Assembly (NCBI GenBank): GCA_030690415.1 | Contig: JAUYGZ010000008.1 | Span: forward strand, 1 to 64,000 | Length of the DNA: 64,000 nucleotides | Direction of reading: 5' to 3' | Source of the DNA: a bacterium | Lineage (GTDB): Bacteria; Patescibacteriota; Gracilibacteria; JAUYGZ01 | Shown: one piece after another, positions 210-16,751 of the stretch | How the letters are laid out: every line of letters begins with the position of its first letter | Numbering within the stretch: position 1 is the stretch's first letter | The notes under the pieces: generated by a model | What the model saw: only the letters and a program-made list of their open reading frames with translations | Database searches by the model: none | What the model was told of the DNA's origin: nothing | Made by a program: the position numbers and the translations under genes

Positions 210-279
210 GTTAGCTGATGTATTCCTTTTCTTTTCCGACGATAGTCGGTTGTTTTAAAAATTTTCAAATTTCTTTTTC
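210..279. repeat. Left extended inverted repeat with cassette-start box GTTAGCT
   Basis: This 70-nt segment begins GTTAGCTGATG and is the near-complement of 8621-8692 at the far end of the defence module. Both copies carry a small hairpin at the same place, CCGAC-GATA-GTCGG here and TTGGGC-TATC-GCCCAA there. Stem bases differ but pairing is kept. The first seven bases match an integron R' box (G^TTRRRY-like), and the far end carries the matching R'' box AGCTAAC. No attC arms lie upstream; they may have been displaced by the IS110 insertion. Confidence 0.7.
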
Positions 280-296
280 CGTTTTTGGTGGTGGGC

Positions 297-404
297 AGAG
301 GGGAATTAAAGGGGTGAATGACCATCACCCAAAACACCTATTCTTGGTTCGAGGGAGGGGCAAGAGGGGAACAAAAGGGGTGAATTGCCCCGATCGAAAA
401 CAAT
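297..404. repeat. Two divergent GGGGAA direct repeats downstream of the Shedu gene
   Basis: Two copies of AGAGGGGAAYWAAAGGGGTG occur near 297 and 372. Each is followed by a short hairpin (GGGTGA/TCACCC and GGGGTGAATT/GCCCC-type). The segment is gene-free and lies just inside the left inverted repeat. Similar GGGGAA-hairpin units occur inside the right end (8490-8620, opposite orientation). Function unknown. Confidence 0.45.
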
Positions 405-1805
405 CTATGTTTTTATGTTCTCTACATATCTTTCAGCCATATTTAAAATTTCATCAAAAGTGAATATTTGTATATTGTGAATACTATTTCTTAACTTAGT
501 GAAATCCTTTTTTAGTCTCTTTTTCTGATCCTCGCTTAGTATATTCTGATTCTTGCAAATCTTACCGTAAGAAGAGATGATAATAATTCCTCGTGGTCTG
601 TATAGATTCTGATCGATATTAAGATAGCTTAGAAGATCTTTTTTATCTTTTGTTTTCTTAAATTTCTCGTCAGTTATTGCATCCATGTAATTTATCGATT
701 GGATAATTGCCTTGCTCATTTCGGAAGAAAAAGCGAAGTTGTCATGGGAATTATCCCAAACTAAAACATTTTTCAGGTGTGTTTTGATTTCAATAATATC
801 AACTCCGTCATAGTGATTTACTCCGACAAAATCAGGGTACTTCTTGTCTAGGTTTTCAAGATCTTTAAGTTCAACCTTAGGAATAATCTTTTTATAGGAG
901 AAAAACAAATATAGGAGATATTTTTCAAAGTATTTTTGCCAAACAGTTTCGAGTTGCCCAATGTTTTCTGAAAAATGTAATTTTATTAACTTTTTCGCTT
1001 GTTTTGTTTTTACATTACTACTTTTAAGTGCGAGGATTTCTTTTCCTGCTTGAATAATGTCTTCAAGTTTTTCTTTTATAAAGTAGTCATCCAGTTTTCT
1101 TAGATACTCCTCGTCAAATACCTCTTTTTTGATCATTTCCTCGAAGAGAGAGCCGAGTGACGTTATGTCATCCGGGTTTAAATACTGTTGAAAATCCTTT
1201 TTCTTCTTTTTTGTGTTTAGATTGAGTCTATTGATGAGAAAGTCAAATTCACCCTTTGTAATACTCGTAGTTTTTTGAGTTCTTTTATTTAGGAAAGTAA
1301 ATTTTGTTTGATTAATTAAAAAATTAAGAAGGCTTGTTTTTGAGGATTTTGCTCTTTTATCTATTTTTGTTATTTCCGCTTGTACCTCTTTGAATTTTTC
1401 AGGCTGTATCAATAGGTTTTTTGCTCTTTTTTGAAGTTCTGTTTTGTAGTTTGCTGAAATTTTTACAATATCAATGCCCTCAAATATTTTTTTAAAAATC
1501 CAGTGTTCTTTAGAAAAATTATATCCAAAGCTATTTCTTTCTTCATTTGACCAGTATTTTATAAAATCCAAAGCGTTTAAATCCTCATGAATAAGCAACG
1601 TAAGGTAATTTTCTCTTTTTATAATACTTCTCTCTATCGTATCAAAGTCATAAAAGTTTATTTTCATAAAGCCCTGTTCTTTCATGAGAATGTATTCCTC
1701 TGAATCAGCTATTTTAATGTGGTTATTTTCTTCGTTAATATCTAAAAAAGTGCTCCATGGGAACTTTTGAAATAACTGATATATGTTTGTAATCTGATCG
1801 GGCAT
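405..1805 (-). CDS. Shedu-like nuclease, DUF4263 C-terminal domain
   Basis: The 466-residue protein is Lys- and Glu-rich. Its last third, from about residue 290, reads as the DUF4263 (SduA) nuclease: YPDFVG, then DGVDIIEIKTH, a PD-(D/E)XK-like D...E-I-K signature, then helical segments. The first 290 residues are an unrecognised alpha-helical region. In known Shedu systems SduA acts alone as an oligomeric anti-phage nuclease. Here it is the last gene of a four-gene operon, 7 bp after the methylase stop codon, so it is probably co-expressed with the restriction genes. Base composition is AT-rich, like the rest of the module and unlike the core genes. The nuclease domain is fairly secure; its job in this operon is inferred. 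Confidence 0.65.
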   Translation of the reverse strand: MPDQITNIYQLFQKFPWSTFLDINEENNHIKIADSEEYILMKEQGFMKINFYDFDTIERSIIKRENYLTLLIHEDLNALDFIKYWSNEERNSFGYNFSKEHWIFKKIFEGIDIVKISANYKTELQKRAKNLLIQPEKFKEVQAEITKIDKRAKSSKTSLLNFLINQTKFTFLNKRTQKTTSITKGEFDFLINRLNLNTKKKKKDFQQYLNPDDITSLGSLFEEMIKKEVFDEEYLRKLDDYFIKEKLEDIIQAGKEILALKSSNVKTKQAKKLIKLHFSENIGQLETVWQKYFEKYLLYLFFSYKKIIPKVELKDLENLDKKYPDFVGVNHYDGVDIIEIKTHLKNVLVWDNSHDNFAFSSEMSKAIIQSINYMDAITDEKFKKTKDKKDLLSYLNIDQNLYRPRGIIIISSYGKICKNQNILSEDQKKRLKKDFTKLRNSIHNIQIFTFDEILNMAERYVENIKT

Positions 1806-1812
1806 GTTGTGG

Positions 1813-4800
1813 TTACTTTATAGAGGAATCCTCAACAATTTTAATTTCTTCACTCGTAAGACCATAAAGTTGATATACAAGTTGGTCAATTTGCGCCTCA
1901 TACTCCTTGGAAAACGCCTGTTTCTTCGCGTTTAAAGCATGATCCCCATCACTTTTTATAGATGTTATCAAATTTACCAGATCAATAAATGGTTTTTGCT
2001 TTGATTCCGATGCTTCGTGTATTGGAAACTGATCGAGGTGCCTTCTTTTAATATATGGAAATACCTCTGGATTAGTTATAAAGAATTTATTGTAGATATA
2101 GGTAAATAATTTTGAGTTCAATAGCGCCAAAAGATATTCCTCTTTATATTTTTTATCTTTAGTCACGATGTTGTATAAAGATTGTATGGTATAAAATTGT
2201 TTTTCGTCCAAACATGCTGTTAATTTTCGGCCTGTCTTCCTAAGAAGTATCTTTCTGTTTGCTAAATAAACTTTTTCGTTATCATTGCTATGAATTAACG
2301 ATTTATCGAAATTCACATAGTTCCCTCTATCAAACAGTATCCATTTGTCTATATCTTTTCCGCCAAGAACCGGCTTGCTGTTTTGAAAAATTGGGCTTTT
2401 TGAAATCATATCTTTTTGTCCGCCAGTCATAATCCCAATGTAATTTAAGGCCAGATCTCCTAGCGGTTTAGAGAAGAGCTTCATTTTGTCTAAAATATTG
2501 TTTGCCTCATTATCATTAGTTAAATTGAAAATATATTTATCATTTTGTAAATATTTTTTTTGCTCGATAAATATTTGGTTATCTTTGTTTAATAGGTCAT
2601 CTATAAGTATTTTATTGCTGGTGTTGTCATTACTTTTTTGAAAAATTGAAATAACATTATCAACCACAATGGTGCCAAATACCTTCGGTGGTAGTTTCAT
2701 GAATAGTCTGATTTTTGTATTGTCCAACAAAAATTTCCGTATCTTGAAGGAATAAAAATTCGATAAAAAATTCCATGGTGTGATAAATGTTACCAGCCCA
2801 TCATTTTTTAGTATTTTTACAGCCTTTTCAATAAACAAAACATATAAATCTAATTTATCGTAAGCTGTCTCGAAATTTTCTTGATAAATTCTTTTAAACT
2901 CATTCGATATTTTGCCATATTTTGTTGTTACATACGGAGGGTTGGCGATTGCAATATCAAACCCCTCTTTAACTCCAAACATCCATTCTGGATCAAACCA
3001 AGAGGATGCTTGATGGCTAAATGGGTCCCAGGTTGTGAGTTTGGAAGTGAGCTCGGCGTGACCTCTTATATCGCTTTGAATCAAATGATCTAGCATCTTT
3101 TTTTGAACTTGCACAAATTCAAATTTCAATTTGTCTCTTTCGGCTCCGGTTGAGCTAAAGAACAAGTCTCTTAACTCTTGCAGTTCAGTAATTCCGGCTT
3201 CATCTTCGAAGAGATTGGCTTGCTCCTTTGAATTAGATGATTGAGGCAGTACGATTAGGGTGTTTGCTGTAACGAATTTGAAATCCAAGTTAGGCAACGG
3301 CTCAATCCCTCTGTTTTCCGCATTGTCGTCAATGCTTTCATCTACGATAAGAGTCAAAAAGCATCGTAAGCGAGAAATTTCCGTTGCAATGGGCTGAATA
3401 TCCACGCCAAAAATATTTTCTCGGATAATTCCAAGTTTGCGAATATAGTCAAAATTTTTGTTTTCAAATTCACGCTCAATTGCTCGGCGAATTTCCGGAG
3501 ATGCATGTTGAATTTGTTTTTTAAACCAGTTTTTTCCGTCCGGGTCGGTTTGTTGAAGAATAAAGACAATCTTTTGGAGCATTCCCATAGGGAAAGCACC
3601 GGAACCGCAAGCGGGGTCTAGTATTTTAATCTGATGAAGCGCCTCGGTGATGTTTTTTTGCTCTTCTTCGGTTAAAGGATATTCCGTATCATCGCCTAAA
3701 TCATAGCTAATGACTGCTCGTATTTTTTCCTCACCAATGCCGGTTTTATTGCTTAGGTAAGCATAAAGGCTCTCATCGACCATATAGTCGACAATAGTCC
3801 TTGGGGTGTAGTAGCTTCCTGTGCTTTTTCGAGCCGATTCTCCGGTTTCGGGATTAATCTCGGCAAGGAGATTTTCAAAAATGCGTCCAAGCATTTCCGG
3901 ATCAATAGAAAGTTCCTCATCAAAACTGATGTTTTCATCAATAGTGAAGTTGTAGGTTTCTAAGAATTCAAAAAATTCTTGTAACCAGGTGTCAGGAACC
4001 CTAACAATGTTATTAAAAATAGCCTGCTTTCCTTCGTTATAATTAAAAAAGTCGTCATAATGTGGTGTAAAAAGACCGCCATTGAGATAAGGTATGGAAT
4101 TAAATCCATTTTGAGTATACATTTCTTTTCGTTCTTTTATCGGTTTATTGAGAACTTCAAAGAATATCGGTTCAAGAACGCTATGATAGTAATTTCCATT
4201 AGCCAGTGCCGCTTCATGAGATAGAAGTGATAACGGCATTAAGGCTATTTCATCCTTACTTTTCTTTTCTCGCAAAAACCAGCAAAAAATAACGCGACCA
4301 ATTAGCCGGACGGCAAATTCAAGTGAGGTTTGGCTTTTATCCTGAATCGAGGGGAGTTTTAGGAGCGGTTCATATTCATTTTTACTTTTTCTATTGCCGA
4401 CAGTGCCACCAACCAGTTTGGTAAACAGTTCCGATATTTTTTTATAAAAGTCTTTATTTACAACCTCAAGCGAAAACCGACTTTGTAAATCTTCAAAATT
4501 AGAGACTGACCCTTTGCTGATCAGGAATTTCTCAGGCGTTGCTGTTTTGCTGTTTGGCCCAAGAATAAAAGAATAGCGTTTTGGGCTAGATCGTTCAATC
4601 GTGAGTTTTGCTTTCTCATTTCTTTTGGGCGTAAGCGTCATTAATGAAAAACGCCATTGATCATCATCTTCTGAATAAAACGCAATAAGAGCTCGAAACG
4701 CGCCACTTCTCCTCATGATTTGAAACCCTCCCAATGTGAGCCCAACTCGTCTTTTGGATGTACCTGTATGTTTAATTTCAAAAACTTTGAGGTCTAGCTC

Positions 4801-4950
4801 TCTGTTTTCACCTAGCAAGTACGCAGATTCAATATCGCTAGATTTTGTTTCTGTTGTCTTTATTTCCCGTTCATCAACATATAAGTCAGGTAAAAATTCT
4901 GTGACAAAATTAATAAATCGTTCTCTATTATAGGTTTTTCTCAATATCAT
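1813..4950 (-). CDS. Eco57I-type restriction enzyme-adenine methyltransferase (type IIG-like)
   Basis: This 1045-residue protein has the layout of a combined restriction and modification enzyme. Near residues 50-60, ELDLKVFEIKH may be a PD-(D/E)XK nuclease core. The methyltransferase has SAM motif I DPACGSGAFPMG at about residue 445 and catalytic motif IV ANPPYV at about 665. A target-recognition region follows. It would methylate adenine N6. The gene overlaps the helicase stop codon by 4 nt (ATGA), so the two are translationally coupled and likely form one complex. It could equally be the modification subunit of a DISARM- or BREX-like system. I saw no drmA, drmB, pglZ or brxC homologues nearby. 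Confidence 0.8.
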   Translation of the reverse strand: MILRKTYNRERFINFVTEFLPDLYVDEREIKTTETKSSDIESAYLLGENRELDLKVFEIKHTGTSKRRVGLTLGGFQIMRRSGAFRALIAFYSEDDDQWRFSLMTLTPKRNEKAKLTIERSSPKRYSFILGPNSKTATPEKFLISKGSVSNFEDLQSRFSLEVVNKDFYKKISELFTKLVGGTVGNRKSKNEYEPLLKLPSIQDKSQTSLEFAVRLIGRVIFCWFLREKKSKDEIALMPLSLLSHEAALANGNYYHSVLEPIFFEVLNKPIKERKEMYTQNGFNSIPYLNGGLFTPHYDDFFNYNEGKQAIFNNIVRVPDTWLQEFFEFLETYNFTIDENISFDEELSIDPEMLGRIFENLLAEINPETGESARKSTGSYYTPRTIVDYMVDESLYAYLSNKTGIGEEKIRAVISYDLGDDTEYPLTEEEQKNITEALHQIKILDPACGSGAFPMGMLQKIVFILQQTDPDGKNWFKKQIQHASPEIRRAIEREFENKNFDYIRKLGIIRENIFGVDIQPIATEISRLRCFLTLIVDESIDDNAENRGIEPLPNLDFKFVTANTLIVLPQSSNSKEQANLFEDEAGITELQELRDLFFSSTGAERDKLKFEFVQVQKKMLDHLIQSDIRGHAELTSKLTTWDPFSHQASSWFDPEWMFGVKEGFDIAIANPPYVTTKYGKISNEFKRIYQENFETAYDKLDLYVLFIEKAVKILKNDGLVTFITPWNFLSNFYSFKIRKFLLDNTKIRLFMKLPPKVFGTIVVDNVISIFQKSNDNTSNKILIDDLLNKDNQIFIEQKKYLQNDKYIFNLTNDNEANNILDKMKLFSKPLGDLALNYIGIMTGGQKDMISKSPIFQNSKPVLGGKDIDKWILFDRGNYVNFDKSLIHSNDNEKVYLANRKILLRKTGRKLTACLDEKQFYTIQSLYNIVTKDKKYKEEYLLALLNSKLFTYIYNKFFITNPEVFPYIKRRHLDQFPIHEASESKQKPFIDLVNLITSIKSDGDHALNAKKQAFSKEYEAQIDQLVYQLYGLTSEEIKIVEDSSIK

Positions 4951-7900
4951 ACTCGGTGTTCTTGGCTAAGAAGTATTATTTCATGCTCATCCTCGAATTT
5001 ATTTACACGCTTGTTTATAACCTCAATTTGATATTCAGGGATGATTAGTTGTAGCTCTTGAAAGGCCTTTTCAATATCTTTTATTTCCAGCTGAGCAATG
5101 TCTTTCATTGCTCCTTCACTGAGATCATCGTATTTTTCAATAATGTCTTTTAAATCGTCGCAATAATTTTTTGCCTTAGGCAGCTCATTTTTAATGAGCT
5201 GTATTTTTTCAAGCGCTTTTTGTCTTCTGCCCTGAATTTTAGGGAGTTCGTGTTTCTTAAAAAGTTCATCTCGAATAAGTGCAAAAGTTTCGTCGTAGCT
5301 TTTATCTCCATTTTCTCCCACATCTCCGGGTTCGGCGGAAAAATAGTGAAGCGCGTCTTCGGCTGAGCAAATTCTTATACCCTCGTCATCTGTGCCAACC
5401 GCAAAAATGCTATGACTGCCTTTTTTACCAAAACCAACCATTGCAGGCTGTGGCATTTGTGGACGAATAACTCGACTTCTAGAAGGTATATCTATCACGA
5501 GTTTCATTAGATCCTTATCATCTTTTGACTGTTCGTAAATTTCCCTATACGGCGCGTCCCACGATAGCTGCTCTTGTCGCTCTTCACTTTTTTTGTATTG
5601 TTCAATAAAAAAGCTTCTTACTTCTTCGTCGTTGGTGAGAATTTGCGTGTCTGTTCCAATTACCGAATTAATGAGCCTCATTTTCAGAGTGGAAACCTCT
5701 TTAATGCGAGCTGTTTTTTCTCCAATATGAGTTGGGAAATAGTTATAAATATATAACTTATCAAACACTTTCTTATTAATACGGTTTATACGTCCAATAC
5801 GCTGAATAACACGTGTGGGGTTATACGGAATATCATAATTGATAATGATGCCAGCTCGATGGAGGTTGTAGCCTTCACTTATGGCGTCAGTAGCCAACAA
5901 CACATCATAATCATCGCTTTGGGTATCGTCTGGAACGCTTGCATCAAAATTTTTCTTTAAAATATCGTTACTTTGCTTGCTTTTATCTTCGGAGGTGTAT
6001 TTCAATAGCCTTAAGCCGCTTTTTTCTGAGAGAACGTCATAAAGATATTTAACCGTATCTGCGTAACTGGAAAATACTACGATTTTTCGTTTTGGATCCT
6101 CTCGTAGAAGCTCGGAGAGCGTTTCAGTTAATCCTATAACTTTGGGATCATGACCTGCTTTTTTATCACTTCCAAACCAGTTGGTTTGTATTTCATGAAG
6201 TACCGCAATATCGTGCTCAAGTTCGGTAATAAAATTTTCACTTAGGCTTGATGCATCAATCGCTATAAGACCTTTTGAAGTTCTCAATTTTTCTAGCTCG
6301 TCTTCAAATAAGTCTTTTTTCAATTCTTCATCGATTGAATCTGAGTTTTCAAGCAAAAAATCAGGATCAGGAATTTTACCTTTTTTATAAATTGGGACTT
6401 TCCCAACTTCATGATACCAACGTTTGATTAACTCGTTAGAATAAATAATATTTTGTAGCGTTTTTCTGAATGCTTCTTTTGAGCTTTCAAAACGCATCAC
6501 GAGCAATCTTTTCATGAATGAAGCCAGGTTTGTTTGAGCTGTCTTTAGGTCACTTTCATCTAAATCTTCACTATACTTTTTAAGAAAGTCAGAAATGTCG
6601 TCAATATATGTTGTTGGCTTATAACGTGCCCCAATAAAGCCAGTTTCTTTATTCGTAAGTTTTTCTAGAGTGTCTAAATATAATTCGGTAAGTTCTCCCA
6701 GTTCGTATTCTTTAAGCTCCGGGCCGGCAACTTCTGCAAATTTAATGTTTTGTCTTTCAAGATCTTTTTTGTACTTGGAAATATAATCAAGATCCAGTCT
6801 TGACCTGCGTATAACTACTGTTTCTATAAGCCGTCGAAGCTCTTTTGCAATAATGTCCGCTTCACTGGCAATCTGATATTCTGTTAATTTTTCTTTTGCT
6901 CTAGCGCGATTTAATTTCTTATATCTTGTGATGAGCTCTCTAAACCGCAAACTTAGATTGTCGATAGAGCGAATTGTTGAGCGTCCGGGGGTTTGAAATA
7001 GCTTTATAAGAGCAAAAACATCCTTTGGATCATTATTGAATGGAGTTGCCGTAAGTAGAAGTATTTTGTGATCAGGGTGACTTCTCGTTACCTGCCAAAG
7101 TTTTTTATAATCATCTGTATCTTCGTTTCTAAATCTGTGAGCCTCGTCAATAACAATAAGAACAGGCTCTTTGCATTTATGATATTTTTCGTAAACTTGT
7201 TTAATATTCCCAGAGCTGAAAATTTGAGTTCCTGGAATTTTGAATTCAGCTTGATAGTCTTCCCACTGATTTTTCAAATGAGGTGGTGCGATTATAACTG
7301 TTCTCATGCCCATGTTATGAGCTACGGCAGAGGCAATAATACTTTTACCCAGCCCAACTACATCAGCAACAATAACACCGTCATACTTATCTATTTTTTC
7401 GATTGCCGATTTAATAGCGTCTACTTGATATTGAAGATCAATATATTGACCATTGGTAATTTTTTCAGGTGTTTCAATATCCGCAGCTTCGTCATCAAAA
7501 CTGAATAATTCATGTAGTACTCGTAAGTACATGATGTATGGATCAACTTTTGCATGAATCCATAACTGCGTATCAAGCGCATCTAAAAACTCATCTCGGG
7601 AGTCCGGAGTAACCACGTTAATACTCTCTGCGTCATTCCATGATTTTTGGAAATGTTTCGAGTATTCGATAACTCTCTCTGTGTTGTCAAACTGTTCGTT
7701 AAGCTCTCCTTGAGCTATCAGCCCGTTATAGGTGAAATTACTTGAACCCATGAAAACTGTTCCAGTGTTATCCTCTTTATTGCTATGTAAAATATACAAT
7801 TTTTCATGACTGGATTTTTTTGTCATTTTTATTTCCAAAGTACCGTTCTGTATTTTCTGTTCAAAAAGCATTAATGCTTCTTGTTGGTCGGTATTATCAA

Positions 7901-8249
7901 AAATTGAGGATTCGTTGAATATTTCAATAAAGCTTTTGATATAATCTTGTTTTTTGCCAGTTCTTGAGGTTGCTGGATTTCGTGGGGCATATCGCGCAAG
8001 CTCGACTTCTCCACCTTCTCTACGCGATGCTGACAGCATTTCTTTTACCACATTTGGATCAATGTAATTTCCAACAACGATTCTGACGGGTATATCTTTT
8101 AGATATTTAGCTAATAATTGCCAGCCTGAAAAATAAAAAAATGCGACAGAAATATCGATACTTGTAATATTTTTTTGTTCCAAGACATTTGCGAGTGCTT
8201 GGTACATGGTGCTTTCCCTGTTGTTTATGATTTTGAGATTATTTGCCAT
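4947..8249 (-). CDS. PLD-nuclease/SNF2 helicase fusion
   Basis: The N-terminal 250 residues form a phospholipase-D-like nuclease module with an HxK motif (HEKLYI) followed by GSSNFT. A SNF2-type helicase follows: Walker A DVVGLGKS, Walker B DEAHRF, motif III LLLTATPFNN, and a C-terminal RecA lobe with QRIGRINR. It is expected to translocate on DNA and cut it, or license cutting, with the downstream methylase. I chose ATG 8249 (MANNLKIINNRES) because PLD-helicases start near this motif. It lies 4 bp past the regulator stop. ATG 8270, inside the regulator gene, has an AAGG upstream and is possible. The architecture recalls DISARM DrmD plus DrmC in one chain, but that is only analogy. Confidence 0.82.
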   Translation of the reverse strand: MANNLKIINNRESTMYQALANVLEQKNITSIDISVAFFYFSGWQLLAKYLKDIPVRIVVGNYIDPNVVKEMLSASRREGGEVELARYAPRNPATSRTGKKQDYIKSFIEIFNESSIFDNTDQQEALMLFEQKIQNGTLEIKMTKKSSHEKLYILHSNKEDNTGTVFMGSSNFTYNGLIAQGELNEQFDNTERVIEYSKHFQKSWNDAESINVVTPDSRDEFLDALDTQLWIHAKVDPYIMYLRVLHELFSFDDEAADIETPEKITNGQYIDLQYQVDAIKSAIEKIDKYDGVIVADVVGLGKSIIASAVAHNMGMRTVIIAPPHLKNQWEDYQAEFKIPGTQIFSSGNIKQVYEKYHKCKEPVLIVIDEAHRFRNEDTDDYKKLWQVTRSHPDHKILLLTATPFNNDPKDVFALIKLFQTPGRSTIRSIDNLSLRFRELITRYKKLNRARAKEKLTEYQIASEADIIAKELRRLIETVVIRRSRLDLDYISKYKKDLERQNIKFAEVAGPELKEYELGELTELYLDTLEKLTNKETGFIGARYKPTTYIDDISDFLKKYSEDLDESDLKTAQTNLASFMKRLLVMRFESSKEAFRKTLQNIIYSNELIKRWYHEVGKVPIYKKGKIPDPDFLLENSDSIDEELKKDLFEDELEKLRTSKGLIAIDASSLSENFITELEHDIAVLHEIQTNWFGSDKKAGHDPKVIGLTETLSELLREDPKRKIVVFSSYADTVKYLYDVLSEKSGLRLLKYTSEDKSKQSNDILKKNFDASVPDDTQSDDYDVLLATDAISEGYNLHRAGIIINYDIPYNPTRVIQRIGRINRINKKVFDKLYIYNYFPTHIGEKTARIKEVSTLKMRLINSVIGTDTQILTNDEEVRSFFIEQYKKSEERQEQLSWDAPYREIYEQSKDDKDLMKLVIDIPSRSRVIRPQMPQPAMVGFGKKGSHSIFAVGTDDEGIRICSAEDALHYFSAEPGDVGENGDKSYDETFALIRDELFKKHELPKIQGRRQKALEKIQLIKNELPKAKNYCDDLKDIIEKYDDLSEGAMKDIAQLEIKDIEKAFQELQLIIPEYQIEVINKRVNKFEDEHEIILLSQEHRV

Positions 8250-8253
8250 ATCA

Positions 8254-8463
8254 TTAATTAATAAGTTCATCCACGCTGACCTTGAGTGCCTCAGCAATTT
8301 TTTTTAGTGTTTCGATTGTTGGATTTGTATTTGCTCCACTTTCAACAGTAACTACTGTATTTAAAGAAAGGTCTGCTAATTTAGAAAGTCGATCTTGCGA
8401 TAGATTTTGCTCTGTTCGCAGCCGTTTGATGTTCTTTCCAATGGTATTCTTAGGGTTTGGCAT
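8254..8463 (-). CDS. Xre-family helix-turn-helix regulator
   Basis: This 69-residue protein is a single Cro/C1-type HTH domain: IGKNIKRLRTEQNLSQDRLS, a turn, then SLNTVVTVESGANTNP and ALKVSVDELI. I used ATG 8463 because the product then spans exactly one domain; the frame is open further upstream through repeat sequence. It is the first gene of the defence operon and is followed at once by the helicase, which suggests autoregulation of the whole unit. Small Xre controllers like this commonly delay restriction expression until methylation is complete. A sigma70-type promoter lies just upstream at 8491-8519. Confidence 0.85.
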   Translation of the reverse strand: MPNPKNTIGKNIKRLRTEQNLSQDRLSKLADLSLNTVVTVESGANTNPTIETLKKIAEALKVSVDELIN

Positions 8464-8489
8464 ACCAATATAATGTATAGATTTGATTG

Positions 8490-8620
8490 TATGGTACTGC
8501 TTTGAAATTCCCCTGTCAAAAAGAGTGTTTCGCCGATAGGCGGAATTCCATATATTCCCCTCATCAAATAAGCGTTTCCGGAGTGTAGCGGAGGAAACAC
8601 CATATTTCCCCTCCTCAAAA
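8490..8620. repeat. GGGGAA-hairpin direct repeats upstream of the regulator
   Basis: On the plus strand, TTCCCCT-N-TCAAA occurs three times at roughly 50-bp spacing. The first two are followed by different hairpins: CGCC-GATA-GGCG near 8533, and TTTCC-N-GGAAA near 8573. The stems differ while the pairing is kept, so structure rather than sequence seems conserved. The array overlaps the operon promoter. No gene is supported here. Confidence 0.5.
8491..8519 (-). promoter_or_regulatory. Promoter of the defence operon
   Basis: Read on the minus strand, TTGACA (8519-8514) is separated by exactly 17 bp from TACCAT (8496-8491). The Xre start codon is 28 bp further on. The -35 box lies inside the first GGGGAA repeat, so that repeat array could be the operator. 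Confidence 0.5.
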
Positions 8621-8692
8621 GAAAAAGAAATTTGAAAATTTTTAAAACAATTGGGCGATAGCCCAAAAAAGAAAAGGAATATGTCAGCTAAC
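8621..8692. repeat. Right extended inverted repeat of the defence module
   Basis: The reverse complement of this segment starts GTTAGCTGACATATTCC and continues through a TTGGGC-TATC-GCCCAA hairpin to TTTCTTTTTC. It matches 210-279 nearly throughout. Its last seven bases, AGCTAAC (8686-8692), form the R''-like box of the attC-like site that follows. Confidence 0.7.
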
Positions 8693-8768
8693 GTTTGCGG
8701 CCTATGCGACGAATCGCGGTGGTATAATTGTTGAACCACGTGATATGTCGTATAGGCCGCTGTTGTGG
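8686..8768 (+). other. attC-like recombination site 1
   Basis: Order on the plus strand: R'' box AGCTAAC (8686-8692), spacer GTTT, arm GCGGCCTATGCGAC (8697-8710), inner hairpin GTGG/CCAC (8719-8739), arm GTCGTATAGGCCGC (8747-8760), T, R' box GTTGTGG (8762-8768). The arms pair at 13 of 14 positions. R'' is the complement of the box at 210-216, where this cassette starts. R' is the complement of R'' in the next site. This alternation is the hallmark of integron cassette arrays. The site fits the loose attC consensus, not the strict one. Confidence 0.6.
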
Positions 8769-8778
8769 GATGAATAAT

Positions 8779-9009
8779 TTAGCCTTCAATTCCCCATACT
8801 CTCATGACCTGTTCTTTGAAATCAGAGCAAGTGTCATCGAGGCTTTCAAGAAGAGGTTCGACAGCGTCTCTGTCTGTAAGTCTTACGACGCGGTCAATTA
8901 ACTTTCTTGTAGGGTGGTTTTCTGGTAAAGCATGATAAATCCTCTGAGCTGAATTGAGGTATCCAAGCGTTGCTATTCTGCCATCAAGCTTGTCTTGCAT
9001 TTCTTCCAT
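8779..9009 (-). CDS. Small hypothetical protein carried by the second cassette
   Basis: A 76-residue, mostly helical and acidic protein with no motif I recognise. It is the only gene between the two attC-like sites, which makes it a typical one-gene cassette. It runs against the array direction, so it needs its own promoter, and a good one is present at 9034-9061. There is no Shine-Dalgarno sequence before ATG 9009. Small cassette genes are often antitoxins or toxin inhibitors, but nothing in the sequence shows that here. Confidence 0.6.
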   Translation of the reverse strand: MEEMQDKLDGRIATLGYLNSAQRIYHALPENHPTRKLIDRVVRLTDRDAVEPLLESLDDTCSDFKEQVMRVWGIEG

Positions 9010-9033
9010 GAGAGTTGGTTAGGTTGTGATGAT

Positions 9034-9061
9034 ATATTACAATTTATTTATAAAAAGTCAA
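9034..9061 (-). promoter_or_regulatory. Promoter of the small cassette gene
   Basis: On the minus strand, TTGACT (9061-9056), a 16-bp spacer and TAATAT (9039-9034) lie about 25 bp upstream of ATG 9009. A dedicated promoter explains how a gene against the array direction is expressed. Confidence 0.5.
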
Positions 9062-9086
9062 ATATTTTAGGGCTAAATTATATGTC

Positions 9087-9232
9087 CCACAACGTTCGCG
9101 GTATATCCGATGTGCGGAGGGAAATGGAGGCGGTATAATATTTGCGAAGCAACCGCCGGAATGACCGGAGCATATGGGTGGAGCTGAGGGGGTATTTCGA
9201 GGTGGGCGGAACCGGATATACCGCTGATCTGT
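9087..9232 (+). other. attC-like recombination site 2 (large, degenerate R')
   Basis: R'' box CCACAAC (9087-9093) is the complement of R' of site 1. Then come spacer GTTC and arm GCGGTATATCCGA (9098-9110), which pairs 12 of 13 with CCGGATATACCGC (9212-9224). An inner hairpin GGCGGT (9129-9134)/ACCGCC (9152-9157) lies within. The spacing R''-GTTY-GCGG and CCGC-T-G is identical to site 1. The 3' box reads GATCTGT instead of GTT-something but is still followed by GATG, as at the other two boundaries. The array seems to end here. Confidence 0.55.
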
Positions 9233-9417
9233 GATGTCCGCCTTCTTCTTTTTTGTATCCATTCGGCGGGCTCAGGACATGTTTTGTATTCTTACTCTGC
9301 TTTAAGGAATTTTGGACAGGATTTTTTTATAGAGGCGAGCGGCAGAGGGTAGGGTGAATGCCGTGAAGCCATTATTTTTATCAAACTGGTAAATCTTTAT
9401 CTGTCATTTTTTGGTTC

Positions 9418-9446
9418 TTGACCTATTGACAAAATAATGATATTAT
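9418..9446 (+). promoter_or_regulatory. Orphan sigma70 promoter
   Basis: TTGACC (9418-9423), a 17-bp spacer and TATTAT (9441-9446). The predicted start, 7 nt on at about 9453, is the first base of a foldable segment. The next genes are on the opposite strand. Confidence 0.5.
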
Positions 9447-9452
9447 TTCTTT

Positions 9453-9509
9453 GTAGGATCAAGTGGGGAGACCCTCCCAATAAATGAGGCTTTCAAACCG
9501 CTTTCCTAC
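9453..9509 (+). ncRNA. Candidate small structured RNA
   Basis: GTAGGA (9453-9458) pairs with TCCTAC (9504-9509) and closes a 57-nt segment. Inside, GGGAG/CTCCC forms a tight hairpin. The 5' end of the fold coincides with the predicted transcription start. No T-run follows, so the 3' end is uncertain. I do not recognise a family. Confidence 0.3.
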
Positions 9510-9525
9510 TATTTACATCAACTCA

Positions 9526-10254
9526 TTACAAAATATAGATAGGATCCCAGTCTTGGTCCTTCTTTTTTTGTGCGTATTTCGTTCGTAGCTCTCTAAAGCG
9601 TTTTACCAGATCGAGTTTTGGCCTGCTTTTGAGATGTTTCTTTTCGAGTTCGTAAACGGTTAACCCCAAGAGAAGATCGGCGAGTTGAATGAGATCGTGT
9701 ACTCTGCTATCCAATCGATAACACCGTGAGAGGTTATTTCTCTTGCGAATATCTTCTTCGAACTTATAACCAGCCGGGGTATTGAAAGAATCGAGAAAGA
9801 AAACGGATTGCGTGTGCTGTCTTTGTTTGAGGGCTCCGAGATCCAGTTCATCCAATTTGTCGAAAAAGTTATTGATGGACGTTTGATGATCGTCGATGAA
9901 AGGTGCGTTGAAAAACATGATGGGCAACGGGCCTTTTGACCAGTATTGAAAGAATTGTTGAATGAATTCTTGAGCGATAAATGACCTGATGAGATTGAGG
10001 CTTGACCACTTGATCTCTCTCATCTGCTTGTTCAACATGTTGATTTCTTCTGATCTTTGCTGAACGGTCAGTCCTTTTTTGGTCTCGATTCGTTGTTTAT
10101 GAAACATATCAGCGTTTTGCCTTACCCTGAAGAATGCTTGGGTTAAAGCTGGTGCAAGTCGTTTTTCCATCACGAGCACTCCAATTCTTCTGGAGCGTGT
10201 TTCTTCGTCCATGAAGAAGTCGAATTCTATCGGTTCGCCGTCGAAGGTGATCAT
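9526..10254 (-). CDS. DUF3800-like protein
   Basis: A 242-residue protein resembling DUF3800, an RNase H-like fold frequent in defence islands. The first strand ends in an acidic FFMDEE near residue 15, replacing the family's usual DESG. A VFFLDS strand lies near residue 150 and the C-terminal SRVHDLIQLADLLLG helix near 185-200, which is the most family-like part. It is the last gene of a minus-strand run of five. The unusual N-terminal motif could mean a divergent or inactive member, so the family call is moderate. Confidence 0.5.
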   Translation of the reverse strand: MITFDGEPIEFDFFMDEETRSRRIGVLVMEKRLAPALTQAFFRVRQNADMFHKQRIETKKGLTVQQRSEEINMLNKQMREIKWSSLNLIRSFIAQEFIQQFFQYWSKGPLPIMFFNAPFIDDHQTSINNFFDKLDELDLGALKQRQHTQSVFFLDSFNTPAGYKFEEDIRKRNNLSRCYRLDSRVHDLIQLADLLLGLTVYELEKKHLKSRPKLDLVKRFRELRTKYAQKKKDQDWDPIYIL

Positions 10255-10322
10255 GTTTTCTTTTGTTTATCAGGGGCTTTACGATAGCAGTCACTCTTGT
10301 CTTTGAAAATCGGATTTGTTCT

Positions 10323-11873
10323 TCAGACATTTTTTACAGTTTTAGCTTGCGAGTACATGATTTTCACGGGTTGCATTGGCTTCTCCAGCACTTCAAAGAT
10401 TTTCACCATCGCCAAAGTGTCCAGTTTACAGTATTCCAATAGATCCTTTTTCAGCGATTCTTTTTCCGATTCATCAGAAGTTTCAAACATCATTTTTTTC
10501 CATCCGTTCATCGCCATGGAGCCATCTCGTATGTTCAAATTGGCGTAGGTCATTTGCGGTACCAGGACGGGCAAGACGTCCTTAATGGAAAAGCCTCCTT
10601 TGAAGTCAGGATGGAGATAGAGGTGTTTGGAAAAAATTTCCATCAGGTCAAAGAGCCTCTGGTTATAGTCACGAAAAGACTCAGCGCCATCTGGCATCAG
10701 ATCAGCAAGATCTTCGTTGCATTTTTCTTCAAATTTCTTGTTCCAAACGATGATGTTTCCTTCCTTCCCCATCATGTTCGTCAGGGTGTTTGCCAGTGCA
10801 ATCATCGGGTGGGATTCTGGATCTGTGTGGAGGTATTCATAGTGCTCCAATGTGCCACCTGGTCCTCTCAGGACGTGCAATGAAAACTGAAAGGGGACTT
10901 GTTGATAGGGAGCGCAGCCGTCGTAGATCGGCACGGCGGTAGGGTAGGTTTCGTAGTCCAAAAAATAGAGGGGGTACTCCAGTTCATCGAATGCTTTCTG
11001 GATTTCTTGGGGCTTGATAATGGGAATGTTCGTTTGAGCTACCTGCACATGGTTTCGTTGGTACTCCGTCAGTTCAAAATCTTCAGGAACCTCTTCGAGA
11101 GCATAGTGGCCGTCCTCTACCAGCGCTTCCAATCGTTTGGGGCTCAGTCCGATGCGGACAATGTCGTGAACCGAGTAGTCGGGGACATCGGGGTACAAGT
11201 ATTTGAAAGCCGGGCAGTGGTTATTGCGCGATTTGTAGATGCAATCGCAGGGAAGTGGTTCTCTCTCCTGTTCGATCAGGTGCTGCATGCCGGGGATCAA
11301 GAGCTGGACCTCTTTTTCCAGTTCTTTCACGTTTTCGGTAATGTCGGTGATTTTCAGGAGTTCTCGGGGCTTGATCTCCCCGTGCTTGCGGAATTCTTTG
11401 TTTAATTCGATCAGGTTCACTCGTCCGACATCGAGTCCGGCCTTTTTGGCCACGATGTATTGAAAAGTTGCATCATTGAGCTGTTCTTCTTTCTTTTTCT
11501 CTTTGCTGCTGGTGGCTTTTACTTCATTGATGATCCAATGTCCAAGGCTCTCATCCCACTCTAAAATATCCACCATGGCATAGAGGTTCTCGGCTTGGAA
11601 TGTGGCCTGAAAAATGGCTTTGTTCTCTTCCGCGAGGAGTTTTTGAGTTTCTTTGATGGCGGCAGCTTCTCTACTGTTCACCAGAACGCCTCTGGGAAAT
11701 AATTTCCTGGCCCAGAGTTCTACTTCCTTCCCATTTTTAATGAGTTCTTTATCAAAGTCGCTCAGTTCTTGTTCCCTGAGCACTTGTGGTTTTTTCTTGA
11801 AGAACCAGAAGTATGCGGGGCATTCAAGGTAACGGAGGAAGTCGGATTTGGTGATGGGGGAGGTGGGGGTCAT
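10323..11873 (-). CDS. DUF2779 nuclease: Cas4-like domain plus RNase H-like exonuclease
   Basis: The 516-residue chain starts with a helical ITKSDFLRYLECPAYFW segment typical of RecB/Cas4-type nucleases, followed by an EVKAT core near residue 118 and a cysteine cluster (CDCIYKSRNNHCPAF) near 210 that could bind an iron-sulfur cluster with an upstream Cys. From about residue 295 a DEDD-type exonuclease begins: YFLDYET is its first acidic motif and a late YCKLDTLAM its last. This arrangement is the DUF2779 family, of unknown physiological role but often near mobile or defence genes. It sits third in the same minus-strand run, 43 bp from its upstream neighbour. Confidence 0.72.
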   Translation of the reverse strand: MTPTSPITKSDFLRYLECPAYFWFFKKKPQVLREQELSDFDKELIKNGKEVELWARKLFPRGVLVNSREAAAIKETQKLLAEENKAIFQATFQAENLYAMVDILEWDESLGHWIINEVKATSSKEKKKEEQLNDATFQYIVAKKAGLDVGRVNLIELNKEFRKHGEIKPRELLKITDITENVKELEKEVQLLIPGMQHLIEQEREPLPCDCIYKSRNNHCPAFKYLYPDVPDYSVHDIVRIGLSPKRLEALVEDGHYALEEVPEDFELTEYQRNHVQVAQTNIPIIKPQEIQKAFDELEYPLYFLDYETYPTAVPIYDGCAPYQQVPFQFSLHVLRGPGGTLEHYEYLHTDPESHPMIALANTLTNMMGKEGNIIVWNKKFEEKCNEDLADLMPDGAESFRDYNQRLFDLMEIFSKHLYLHPDFKGGFSIKDVLPVLVPQMTYANLNIRDGSMAMNGWKKMMFETSDESEKESLKKDLLEYCKLDTLAMVKIFEVLEKPMQPVKIMYSQAKTVKNV

Positions 11874-11916
11874 GACTTAGTTGTTTTTTGTGGGTAAAGT
11901 TGGTTTTTTCCTCAAT

Positions 11917-12588
11917 TTAAAAAACAAACGGTTCGGAATTAATCTTTCTTGGACCAGACTTGGGGTTATTTATATGCCACAGTGGCCAATCTAACTCTTT
12001 CCAAAGTTCAAAGTATTGTATATCAAATTTAATCGGCTGACCTTGATTTATTCCTAAAACGACCAATTTTCCTTTTGTTCGATAGCGATTTCCGGTTTGA
12101 ACAATAGGTTGAATTTCGAATGGTATGAGAATTTTTTCTTGGAAGTTTACAAAACTTTCACATCTGTAGTCTTTTCCAAAAGTGGTTCTTCCATATTTAT
12201 CAAACATAGCCTCGTCCGAGCCTACCTCAGCCATAAAAGCGCAATCATGTGCTTGAAAACGTTCATTATATTTATCAAAAAAACTTTTTATATCCATCTC
12301 ATAGTTTGTAAAAAGTGCTTGCGCTCGCCATTCAGAAGTCCACCAAGAATAGAGATCCCTTCCTATTCCAAAAAGTCCATAAGTTAAAAAAGACAAAATT
12401 ATCAAACCAGCAAAGATCGTTGATCCTTTACTCCAGATAGACTTGGAATTTTTCCAATGCTTAACAAAATTTTTAAACAGATCTACTAAAGATTCCCAAA
12501 AAACAAGCATTATAATGCCGCAAAACATTTCCCATAACCCCGGAAAAAATTTTTCTGAGCCATTTCGAATGTTTTTAAAAGATTTCAA
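11917..12588 (-). CDS. Hypothetical membrane protein
   Basis: This 223-residue protein probably has two hydrophobic segments near the N-terminus (about residues 18-38 and 56-77), followed by a roughly 140-residue soluble domain with two cysteines. The first codon is TTG at 12588, with no ribosome site; an in-frame ATG 20 codons on would remove the first segment, so the start is uncertain. It lies 23 bp after the TIR-like gene and may work with it, for example as a membrane partner. No family recognised. Confidence 0.55.
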   Translation of the reverse strand: MKSFKNIRNGSEKFFPGLWEMFCGIIMLVFWESLVDLFKNFVKHWKNSKSIWSKGSTIFAGLIILSFLTYGLFGIGRDLYSWWTSEWRAQALFTNYEMDIKSFFDKYNERFQAHDCAFMAEVGSDEAMFDKYGRTTFGKDYRCESFVNFQEKILIPFEIQPIVQTGNRYRTKGKLVVLGINQGQPIKFDIQYFELWKELDWPLWHINNPKSGPRKINSEPFVF

Positions 12589-12611
12589 ACGATTTTTTTA
12601 TAGTGCTCAAA

Positions 12612-13481
12612 TTAGTGGATTTCTGAAATGCTAACAGGATTTAAAATCCCCTCAATTGTCGAATCTAGGTCTGATTCCAATACTTGTTTACCTTTAATAG
12701 AATTCTTATATTCGATTCTTCTTATATGTGAAATATCAAATGGGAACTTCGGTTCAGGGGTCTTTTTTTGATATATCATTATGGTTTCTTTTCCTAAGGT
12801 ATGAGCAATTCCTAACTCATACATCACATTCGGATTCAGGCTAGTTAAATCAGCAATTACTATTCTGGCTTCACATAGAGCTTTCCATATATCATTTAAT
12901 ACTACTTTGTTGGTTTTGAAATCGTCCGCTCTTCTACATATTAGATCCTTGCTTTCAACGGTAGGCTTGATGATTGATTTATAATTTTTTGTTAACTTTT
13001 TTTCAAATGGCATTAAAACAAATACAAGTTTCGGATCAATTTTGTAACTTGCAGGTCCAAAGACTGGTGATACTTGTATGAGTGACATAGTTTCTACAAC
13101 TCTATTAAATTCTGATTCTACATGAGATTTTGCTACTGCTGCAATTACACCTGCTCTCTCTTGTTCGCTTTTTTCAATAATTTCTTTAGGAAATGAAATT
13201 ACAAAAGGTTCATCAAATCCAAATTCCCATTTTGCTTGATTCAAAGCTTGCTGAATTGAAAATTCTTTTTCTGGTAAATCAAAATAAATGGTTGTAGGCA
13301 TTCCTGCACTTTTGGTAGCTAATACAAAAATATTTTTTTTATCAATAAAGATAACCAAATTACAAGCGAGTTGGCTTCGTACAACTGCTCTTTGTAACTT
13401 TCTTTGATTCGATTCCTTTTGAACTTCTAATGCAAACTGGTCCAGTATTTCAAGAACTTTTTTTTGATTTTCGGCATCCAT
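12612..13481 (-). CDS. TIR/nucleoside-deoxyribosyltransferase-fold protein
   Basis: The C-terminal half (from about residue 150) has VFVLMPF, then RRADD, a DIWKALCEARIVIADLT helix-strand, NPNVMYELGIAH and GKETIMIYQ. That is the order seen in nucleoside 2-deoxyribosyltransferase-like and TIR-like folds, where the Glu of the YELG motif is the catalytic candidate. The N-terminal half is unrecognised. ATG 13481 was chosen because AGGAGG lies 4 nt upstream, one of the few clear Shine-Dalgarno sequences in the window. It starts 38 bp after the methylase stop, so it looks like a restriction-linked gene, perhaps a nucleotide-degrading effector. That role is inferred. Confidence 0.6.
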   Translation of the reverse strand: MDAENQKKVLEILDQFALEVQKESNQRKLQRAVVRSQLACNLVIFIDKKNIFVLATKSAGMPTTIYFDLPEKEFSIQQALNQAKWEFGFDEPFVISFPKEIIEKSEQERAGVIAAVAKSHVESEFNRVVETMSLIQVSPVFGPASYKIDPKLVFVLMPFEKKLTKNYKSIIKPTVESKDLICRRADDFKTNKVVLNDIWKALCEARIVIADLTSLNPNVMYELGIAHTLGKETIMIYQKKTPEPKFPFDISHIRRIEYKNSIKGKQVLESDLDSTIEGILNPVSISEIH

Positions 13482-13519
13482 TTGGCCTCCTGTTGTGCGT
13501 GCGCCCTTATGAAACATAA

Positions 13520-16500
13520 TTAATCCACTAATGATATTTTATCAATCTCCTTCATAATCCGATCCGTCTCCACCAAAGCCACAATCATCTTTTGGTAATG
13601 CTCAATCTCTTCATTTGAAAGAGCTCTTCCTTTTCGATCTTTAAGCCACTTCTGAGCCGGTTGGTAGCCTCCGATATAGAAATTCCAAGCTATCTCTGGC
13701 ACGTTCCCAAAGTATTGTTTCGAGTTAATAAAAGCCTTTTCATCCATGTAGGCGATCTTTTCAACAGCATTTTCTCCATCTTCGGGGTAAGTGGTGATGA
13801 ATTTATTAAGCACTGAAGATTTCAACAGATGTAATTCCCGTAATTCTTGTCCCATGGCAACGAGCGCGTCGAATTGTTGCTTGTTTTTGGGGTATGGAAT
13901 ACGGGGAAAATCGATTTTTAGAAACTCTTTATATTTTTTTCTATAACCAGGTGAGTGAAGTACAGCGTAAATGTAATCGAAAGTATCTTCTGGAGATATT
14001 TTTCCAACATTTTTTTCAATCTCATTAACGATTTTCTTTTCTAGATTAGGAGTTTTTGATCCATTCTCATCAAAAATGTAAAGTGGAAGAAGGTAAGTAG
14101 CTTCGCGCGTTTGCATTGAAATAGAATTTCGATCAACTATATTATTTGAAACCAAAACATGTTGAAATCCAAAAGTACTTTGCTGACGAGAAACCTGAAA
14201 ACCAATGTTATTGTGACCCACAAAATTTTTCATTGTTTCAGGCCTTGGCCTTTGAAAAACACCTTCACTATTTGAAGAGTATAATGTGTATCTGATATCA
14301 AATGGTCTATATGAAATAGGTGTATATTCTTGAATAACATTATTCAAATCCTTTTTGACATTAATTATTTTTTTCTCATCAATTTCATATTTTTGAGTTA
14401 CTTCTTGGACAGAGAAGTTATTTAGATGATTTCGAAGATCCTTCAATTCATTAACAGAAAATTTGATCAAAAAATCATCTTTTCCCGTAGATGCTCCAGG
14501 TGACCATTTTTGAAATAACTCAGTTAGTTTAAAGCCTGAATTGTAATCATGTTCTGATGAAAAATCCTTTTTAACAAAAAAATAATAAGGATCAGTATAT
14601 TTTAATTTCTCCCATTTAATTGAATCAATTTTGTTCTCATTAAGAAAAGAGAACTTTTCTGATCTTCTGCCATATAAGTCCATATGGAAAACTTTTCCTA
14701 ATCCATTCATTTTGCTCTTTTTTTTGATAAAGATACAAATAGCTACTCCTTGTTGAATTGCAAACACATTCTCATCTTTTCCGCCATTAGCTGAAGTTTC
14801 TTTCTTTTTGGCATTTCCGTGTAGATCCAAAACATAGATCTCATCGAATGTTTCAAGCACATGCTTTCTCATTTGACGATGAATTATTCCATCCAAAAAT
14901 GAATTATTGGTTATCATAGCAACAATTCCAGTCCCATTTCTTTCAATAAAATGTTCAGCGTATCGAATAAATTTTATATAGTCATCTGAAAGCGGCTGAA
15001 TATTTCTCTCTTCTAGGCCATTTTTGTAATCTTTTATTAAATTTGTAATCCAGTCGCCTTTATTCGAAGAACTAACACTGTAAGGTGGATTTCCTGTGAT
15101 AACCATTATTGGCGTTTGATTCTTAATTTCCGAAGCGCTAATGGCTTCCTCTGCGATACTTTGTGAAAGTCCGAATGAAAACAGATCATTTCCCGTTAGA
15201 TGGCCTTCTTCCAGAGAGTTGGTGAGATAAATTCCCAATCTTCGAGAAAAGGCAGTGTAGCCAGTATCTCTCAAAGTCATTCCAAGTTTGAGATGAGCAA
15301 TGGTGTAAGGAGCCATCATTAGCTCGAAACCATGTAAACGCGGAAGAAGATCAGTGTCGACGTAGCTGCGCCATCTGCCTTCTTGTCCTGAAAAATTTTT
15401 GTGGATCTCTTGAACAATCTCATTCAAAAATGTCCCAGTGCCAACAGCCGGATCTAGAATTTGCACTTGGTGAACCATTTCCTTTCGCTTTTTCCCTTGG
15501 ATATCTCTTTCCACTTCGATTTTCGAAGTATCGGCAAGTCCATTTGCTAATCCAAAGGTGCTTTTCAGAATGTGATCGATTGAACGAACAATAAATCGAA
15601 CGACGGGTACCGGGGTATAGAAGGCTCCTAGTTTTTTCCTTTGAGCAGAGTCGTATTCCTTCAAGAAGTCCTCATAGAAATGGATAACAGGATCCGGTCC
15701 TAAATCTTCATGTCCTTTCGAGTCTTTTTCAAAGTATTGGTGCATCAGCGAGCGAACATCCGCGTGTGCGAAGACCTCGCAAAGCTCATTCACAATATAT
15801 TCAAGACGTTTATCAAAATTCGGCCCGACGATATGATCAAAGAAGTGCTGCAAGAGGGGATTTGAGGCAGGAACTAGGTCTCGAGCTTCTTGGCGCGAGA
15901 AAGTTTCAGGGGTTTCATCATGAAAACGTGCAACAAAAAGTCCGTATACGAGAGTTTGAGCATACATATCTGCAAAGTCCGGAAGCTCTAGATCATGAAC
16001 TAAGAGTTCTTTAATCACATCGTACACTCGTTTCAATTCTTGGCTTCTGTCAGGCTCATTTTGCAGGGTGAATGAAACATTGTCTCGAATACGGCGTGCC
16101 TTTCCTCCCATGATTTTCGCCAATTTTGATCCACTCTTGATGTTTTCGGGAGTACCTGTGAGAAAGTCTTTGAGGGTGTCAGCTAATGCAGAAAATCGAT
16201 CCGGGCGAGGAATAATAGTATTTCCCTGCAATTCGGCAATAACTATTGGATCACCATATCTTTCACCATTCCTAAAAAAACGAAACTCAAGATAGTTGGT
16301 AAGAATGAGGTTCGAATAGCCAAAATATCGTTCTAGCTGTTCGCTTTTTTCCACCTTATCAAGGTTGATATTCACGTCTTTTGTTTCAGCATAACCAGCA
16401 ATGAGCTGCTTCCGCATAAAAATGAAATCCGGAGCGCCATGTTCAGATTTCTTCGGATCATTTATGGACTGGAGCAAGGGATCGATGACTTTTATGAGAT

Positions 16501-16627: not shown

Positions 16628-16751
16628 TAAAAAAAGCATTCCCATCATAACGATTGGGAAATGAAAAGCTAATGCTTAATTATTTCTTCATCTAACTTAT
16701 AAACTATGGAACTAAAAAAAATTGGATATACTCAATTTAATTAAATACTTC

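Follow-up and report, generated by a model that had tools for sequence, protein, structure and literature searches.

The window, the whole stretch of 64,000 nucleotides analysed here, covers the start of contig C7 (its first 64 kb) in a 1.45-Mb genome of 30 contigs. It carries three consecutive putative gene cassettes (A, B and C) and two attC-like sites (S1 and S2) on its minus strand, and the end of an insertion sequence lies at its very start. A tyrosine recombinase gene lies on another contig, C6. The features are as follows, in window coordinates unless a contig is named, with a slash marking a junction between two sequences.

1-209, no strand assigned: end of an IS110-like element, inserted directly after an R'' box
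210-220, minus: R'' box CATCAGCTAAC at the end of cassette C; an attC-like site starts here and is cut at once by the IS end
210-8692, minus: cassette C, 8483 bp, with ends GTTAGCTGACATATTCC... and ...GGAATACATCAGCTAAC
405-1805, minus: SduA-like (Shedu) protein in cassette C (PF14082, E 1e-17; PADLOC SduA)
1813-4950, minus: type IIG-like restriction-methyltransferase in cassette C (Eco57I / TaqI_C; PADLOC REase_MTase_IIG)
4947-8231, minus: PLD-SNF2 helicase in cassette C (profile and PADLOC matches)
8682-8772, minus: attC-like site S1 (covariance model 29.8 bits, E 1e-4), with R'' CATCCCACAAC at 8772-8762, spacer A, L arm GCGGCCTATACGAC, inner hairpin, arm' GTCGCATAGGCCGC, spacer AAAC and R' GTTAGCTG from 8692 down
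8762-9093, minus: cassette B, 332 bp, between S2 and S1, from G/TTGTGGG to ...CCCACAAC
8779-9009, minus: 76-aa ORF in cassette B, with no family matches
9083-9236, minus: attC-like site S2 (covariance model 46.8 bits, E 5.6e-9), with R'' CATCACAGATC at 9236-9226, spacer A, L arm, two inner hairpins, spacer GAAC and R' GTTGTGGG from 9093 down
9226-16688, minus: in-window part of cassette A, from a type IIG restriction-modification (R-M) gene to DUF2779 and DUF3800
13520-16648, minus: type IIG restriction-methyltransferase in cassette A (PADLOC E 4e-278)
C6:39432-40265, minus: tyrosine recombinase gene, about 280 aa (PF00589, E 2.5e-40)

S1 and S2 had been described in an earlier note as two attC-like sites with differing arms and the same architecture, and both are present as described: the S1 arms GCGGCCTATGCGAC and GTCGTATAGGCCGC pair at 13 of 14 positions, the S2 arms GCGGTATATCCGA and CCGGATATACCGC at 12 of 13, and each site encloses an inner hairpin with GGTATAAT on the plus strand. 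The plus-strand reading of the boxes has to be reversed, as the cassette sense is the minus strand, on which the boxes run CATCCCACAAC-A-arm ... arm-AAAC-GTTAGCTG, and the general layout of a site is R''(..AAC)-A-L arm-inner hairpins-arm'-GRAC-GTT(R'). Since the covariance model (E-values for 123 kb) was built on 31 sites, all from genomes other than the source genome, and nevertheless scores both sites, S1 and S2 stand beyond chance. The folding energy of S1 is far below that of shuffled sequences on the two strands (z -4.9 and -6.1), the effect for S2 is modest (z about -1.7), and in both sites the window plus strand, which is the cassette bottom strand, forms the more stable fold (-22.4 vs -17.9 kcal/mol for S1, -20.8 vs -17.2 kcal/mol for S2). 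Further copies in the source genome, which the note had proposed to look for, were found: a third site on the minus strand of C30 (4425-4291) that reaches 89 bits by the covariance model, a copy of S2 with 94% identity at C8:434-573, and, at window 210-220 and about position 150 of C30, sites that are interrupted or only half present. The site at C30:4291-4425 is well kept, yet its R' core is GCGATGTG rather than GTT, and it is possibly inactive or located beside a deletion scar. A pattern search for the box AACGTTNNNNGACATAT returned exact matches only at the two window sites, with near misses no more frequent than in the reversed control, and an Rfam search returned tRNAs only and no family for the sites.

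The boxes delimit units whose two ends belong together. Cassette B has the terminal inverted repeat GTTGTGGGACATATAATTTAGCC and GTTGTGGGATGAATAATTTAGCC, in which 20 of the first 23 bases match, and the cassette starts with GTTGTGGG, to which the R'' of S1 (CCCACAAC) is complementary. Cassette C begins at the R' of S1 (GTTAGCTG) and has its other end, CATCAGCTAAC, at window 220-210, 8.5 kb off, with 24 of the first 26 bases of its terminal inverted repeat matched and a CA/TG mismatch at positions 10-11, positions that are unpaired in cassettes A, B and C alike. Its cargo comprises an HTH regulator, the PLD/SNF2 helicase, the type IIG R-M protein and the SduA-like protein, and the window array carries entire anti-phage modules in cassettes of 7-8 kb. 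The 5' end of cassette A, GATCTGTGACATCCGCC, sits on contig C6 beside an attI-like site, and 31 of 33 bases of the inverted repeat match between C6 (L008:1845) and window 9226-9258, for which reason S2 is taken to end the first cassette after attI. The missing TT of S2 (GATCTGT) had been regarded as the mark of a decayed array end; the same GATCTGTG is found at the other end of the cassette on C6, adjoining attI and 79 bp from the start of the tyrosine recombinase gene. Decay of the array end was rejected for S2, whose odd box CACAGATC is complementary to the far end of the cassette that S2 closes.

The end of C6 (L008 2034-2412) and window 16311-16688 overlap by 378 bp at 96.8% identity, and as the link between the window and C6 consists of matching ends and this overlap, the two may represent two copies, a strain variant or a misassembly. 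C6 ends within this 96.8% copy of the window type IIG gene, and beyond window 16688 its sequence diverges.

The attI-like core beside the C6 recombinase reads ..TTCAGATATCCAGGA/GATCTGTG. For other arrays, attI was predicted by taking the R'' of the integrase-nearest site as the 5' end octamer of the first cassette, and in most arrays examined this octamer lies upstream of the integrase gene, 60-180 bp from its start, adjoining a conserved motif, AAAA-A-TTCGCATAAAAACGA/GTT. In about a dozen genomes the predicted end sits at this motif, which is similar to the right half of an attC-like site. No clear attI was seen in L041, L044, L052, L059, L141 and L236, where the first site is spurious or distant. 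An attI beside the integrase, which is a criterion for an integron, is thereby present by sequence prediction.

The same cassette rule holds across arrays. Among 145 sites matched by the model in 27 loci, all sites of a locus lie on one strand and no locus is mixed. Across 100 cassettes, the six variable R'/R'' bases agree between the two ends of the same cassette at an average of 5.22 of 6, vs 3.40 +/- 0.10 after shuffling (5000 rounds, maximum 3.81), giving arrays of one orientation in which each R'' is complementary to its own R', as in integrons. The inverted repeat of the cassette ends extends to about position 23 (identity 0.5-0.8 vs 0.27), with identity at positions 10 and 11 falling to 0.10 and 0.05, under chance, in these 100 cassettes. 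The longest ORF follows the cassette sense in 72 of the 84 cassettes that have an ORF of at least 80 aa, and the cargo of relatives' cassettes includes R-M, Fic, macro, GNAT, NUDIX, HNH, GmrSD, APH and isochorismatase proteins. Upstream of the recombinase, arrays hold 8-10 sites in G052, G073 and G097, and more in G273 and G298.

Cassette C has a counterpart in a genome of another family, G097, where a 5.3-kb cassette (L049 12740-18017) shares its last 193 bp at 94.8% and its first 140 bp at 86.7% and carries a type III R-M system in place of the cassette C cargo; a third cassette with the same ends is present in G052 (L045, 10306). Because the ends of these three cassettes agree, like ends frame unlike cargo in different families, and such common ends, as compared at the sequence level, support exchange between families, whatever the enzyme. 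In these cassettes of different families, about 140-190 bp at the ends are alike and the restriction/defence modules differ, as if the cargo had been swapped inside a fixed frame.

Base-pair covariation, which the note had suggested as a check, is pronounced. In the 31-site alignment 90.8% of cells are paired, vs 67.9% after shuffling and 29% when the partner is slid by one column, and over the 145 sites the figure is 88.7% vs 64.6% in the control, so that the sites are, like attC, conserved by structure over sequence. Covariation of the L arm (99%) arises partly by construction, since the first sites were selected on that arm; helices 3 and 4, which form the inner hairpin, played no part in site selection and show changes on both sides in 9 of 10 pairs. 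Cells with G-U are lacking in helices 2-4 of the 31 sites and make up about 1% in the 145 sites, and this near absence suggests that pairing acts on DNA rather than RNA. Pairing of R'' with R' inside one site is moderate, with two pairs at half or less, as would be expected if pairing is perhaps optimised in the circle. Classical attC sites have 5-7-nt unpaired spacers on both sides and a classical L box with extrahelical bases. That architecture is not found here, where spacers of 1 nt and 4 nt flank an 11-13-bp L arm followed by a 2-nt bulge; in Flavobacterium sites the spacers are 1 and 5 nt. A ATTATACC in the inner hairpin (TATAAT on the other strand; columns 116-125 of alignment A1, window 8719-8730 and 9130-9141) is conserved, as is the linker CNCCCAWAT, and the two are possibly a promoter-like or protein-binding feature.

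The C6 protein carries the tyrosine recombinase signature (R..K..H-x-x-R..H..Y), with R139, H228, R231, H254 and Y263 invariant in alignment A2, and lacks the IntI-specific additional domain (I2) that a strict definition of an integron demands. The distance from KDR to HxLRH is 61-63 residues in the Patescibacteria recombinases (exception L060, 49) and about 61-66 in relatives from other phyla, vs 103 in canonical IntI, apart from a few rows with shorter counts owing to truncation or partial alignment. Against TIGR02249 the protein scores 191 bits (cut-off 265), with a match that splits at the insert, and its AlphaFold model (pLDDT 90.9) has no helix at the I2 position. Its best structural match is VchIntIA, the integron integrase of Vibrio cholerae (PDB 2a3v; E 3.8e-16, TM 0.78), also the best PDB sequence match, and its best NCBIfam score is with NF040815 (XerA_Arch), at 199.9 below the cut-off of 220. 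Relatives with 40-58% identity are present in about one third of 99 related genomes, mostly one per genome and often near contig ends, and no integrase relative was found in the viral contigs searched. In a tree rooted on host Xer proteins, the recombinase is separate from host XerC/D, the Patescibacteria recombinases (support 95) and canonical IntI (support 99) each group together, and I2-less recombinases neighbour canonical IntI; how IntI, the Patescibacteria group and the remaining sequences branch relative to one another is not supported, and values of 80-84 do not establish the I2-less recombinases as a single clade.

Sites were detected in 112 of 288 genomes of the same class, which includes TGA-recoding members, and in 65 of 380 genomes drawn from the phylum; the host itself is most likely a Patescibacterium. 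Sites and recombinase co-occur (among G000-G098, sites were detected in 29 of 33 recombinase-bearing genomes vs 12 of 66 lacking the gene), and the named recombinase hosts include Peregrinibacteria, Gracilibacteria, Moranbacteria, Paceibacterota, Magasanikbacteria and Falkowbacteria. At the TIGR02249 cut-off, no canonical IntI was found in 287 of the 288 class genomes, more than 100 of these with sites, nor in 9 array-bearing or related genomes or records from outside Patescibacteria. The sole canonical IntI among the 288 (L107, G222:C21:2406-3344, 460 bits) lies on a 4-kb contig of a 120-contig genome and may be contamination. Outside the phylum, an array of 12 sites follows directly downstream of an I2-less recombinase gene (L183:10001-10804) in the cultured Flavobacterium difficile. 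The cassette rule holds there for 10 of 11 pairs of neighbouring sites, repeat position 11 is mismatched throughout, and the first cassette abuts TTGCGTATATAAACAA/GTT, 157 bp past the recombinase gene. L156 (Nitrospirae) and L172 (Arundinibacter) also pass the cassette rule; by automatic attC counting, clear arrays outside Patescibacteria occur only in these three, with weaker matches, by eye or weak model scores, in Rufibacter, Pontibacter and Saccharibacillus. An I2-less recombinase with an array is probably present in other phyla as well. A single strong site (64.6 bits) lies near an I2-less recombinase in L202 (Candidatus Methanoperedenaceae archaeon GB37, 11060-11155).

The IS110-like end in the window lies exactly behind the R'' of a site, and the same end follows the R'' of a different site on C30 (L009, about 150), giving the junctions CATCAGCTAAC/TACCTATATCGC and CATCACAGAAC/TACCTATATCGC; the other end of the element lies before AGCGG on C8 (L007, 1-430). 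C8 also encodes the N-terminal part of a transposase of IS110 type, with a PF01548 match that stays below the gathering threshold (E 6e-4), and a PF02371 search of the source genome found no complete IS110 transposase, with fragments at contig ends only. This insertion sequence seems to target attC-like sites. In classical integrons, IS1111-attC elements target attC sites.

Taken together, S1 and S2 very probably serve as 3' recombination sites for the mobile gene cassettes of an integron-like platform, a reading drawn from comparative sequence analysis. The structure-based attC interpretation of the earlier note is supported by copies across the phylum, covariation, the cassette rule, the attI-like site and an integrase; the system is not a canonical integron. 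In the layout, the I2-less recombinase gene and the attI-like core come first; cassette A follows with S2 at its end, then cassette B with S1, and last cassette C with the IS-interrupted site. A single cassette strand would fold into a hairpin, recombinases would sit to the two sides of the asymmetric 1/4-nt loop, at the R box and at the 11-bp L arm, and cleavage would take place at the GTT core. Cassettes would leave as circles, the joined ends of which form a complete site, and would then insert at attI. The near-constant mismatches (R repeat positions 10-11 and a bulge of 2 nt next to the L arm) may determine strand choice and polarity, and may replace the contact between extrahelical bases and I2 of classical IntI.

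The cassette logic and the GTTRNNY core are shared with classical integrons, and one of 288 genomes does hold a canonical IntI (G222:C21, 460 bits), so the array could be imagined as a transferred classical integron, or an integrase-less attC cluster, moved by a canonical IntI in the genome or the community. We regard this as very unlikely: the other 287 class genomes and the 9 non-Patescibacteria genomes or records have no such enzyme, the covariance model gave no match up to E 1 in class 1 integron DNA (L229, L106), and the 1/4 spacer and conserved inner hairpins differ. The lack of I2 and the XerA-like family score (NF040815, 199.9 against a cut-off of 220) would instead suit a Xer-type recombinase acting on double-strand sites, as in dif and pdif modules, with the palindromes merely serving as binding sites. 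Recognition of double strands does not, however, need arms that vary while pairing is kept free of G-U, the sites stand in direct orientation with the two ends of each cassette complementary, and the best structural match is an integron integrase (2a3v) and not a Xer protein, which leaves very little likelihood for this explanation.

Strong intergenic hairpins, with a z of about -5 to -6 for S1, might also be terminators or regulatory hairpins acting as RNA between genes. That is hardly credible given the near absence of G-U in 145 sites, the complementarity of cassette ends, the lack of an Rfam match and the fixed spacing to GTT and to the attI-like site. The terminal inverted repeats of about 23 bp and the presence of an IS110-like element recall MITE or TIR elements, transposon-like units that depend on a transposase for movement; these repeats, however, vary between cassettes and match only inside a cassette, the cassettes abut head to tail at one core, and they enter at a conserved motif next to a tyrosine recombinase, all of which makes transposition extremely improbable as the explanation.

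We class the integron-like platform as an integron variant outside the strict IntI definition, because its predicted working is integron-like but I2 is missing. That such I2-less integrons form a separate, widespread branch (Patescibacteria, Bacteroidota, Bacillota and others), in which folded sites are recombined without I2 and polarity is perhaps set by mismatches, has in our estimate about an even chance of being right. In the accepted account, gain of I2 let integron integrases recombine single-stranded hairpins (PMC7790495); I2 is known from no other protein, IntI1 loses its activity when I2 is deleted, and intermediates are said to be lacking (PMC7790495). The present integrase, without the extra helix thought essential, bears on integron evolution: if the interpretation is true, the folded-cassette system would be older than, or independent of, the acquisition of I2 held to have founded integrons, and an I2-less platform with integron cassette logic would make that account directly testable and be a candidate intermediate. 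Patescibacteria, which are ultra-small and missing from the list of integron-bearing phyla in PMC8618304, would thereby gain a gene-capture system. Our search of the open literature, with subscription papers and bioRxiv outside it, turned up neither integrons described from Patescibacteria nor an I2-less integrase associated with a cassette array.

Among known systems, archaeal integrons (PMC9668308) also lie outside the classical taxa, although archaeal IntIs carry the IntI-specific domain, which was used there as a search criterion, unlike the recombinase described here; surveys demanding that domain would overlook such platforms. Insert-less members of the 'integron-like' tyrosine recombinase subgroup (Smyshlyaev 2021, PMC8138268) are not tied to cassette arrays in the available part of that paper. 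XerA and archaeal Xer proteins are alike in size and in the missing insert, but the family cut-off is not reached and the recombinase stands apart from host XerC/D in the tree. VchIntIA (2a3v) has the C-terminal SPL end in common, and its aligned gap is 63 residues with the insert vs 20 residues here. The sites differ from classical attC in the 11-13-bp L arm, the conserved inner hairpin containing ATTATACC, the linker CNCCCAWAT and the R repeat of about 23 bp with its constant 2-nt mismatch, and the system as a whole differs from classical integrons in the recombinase without I2 and in spacers of 1/4 nt rather than 5-6/5-7. What is shared with integron cassettes and attC, both of class 1 and of sedentary chromosomal integrons, is the head-to-tail arrangement, an R'' complementary to the cassette's own 5' end and the GTTRNNY core, together with an attI-like site by a tyrosine recombinase, covarying palindromes and a bottom strand that folds better.
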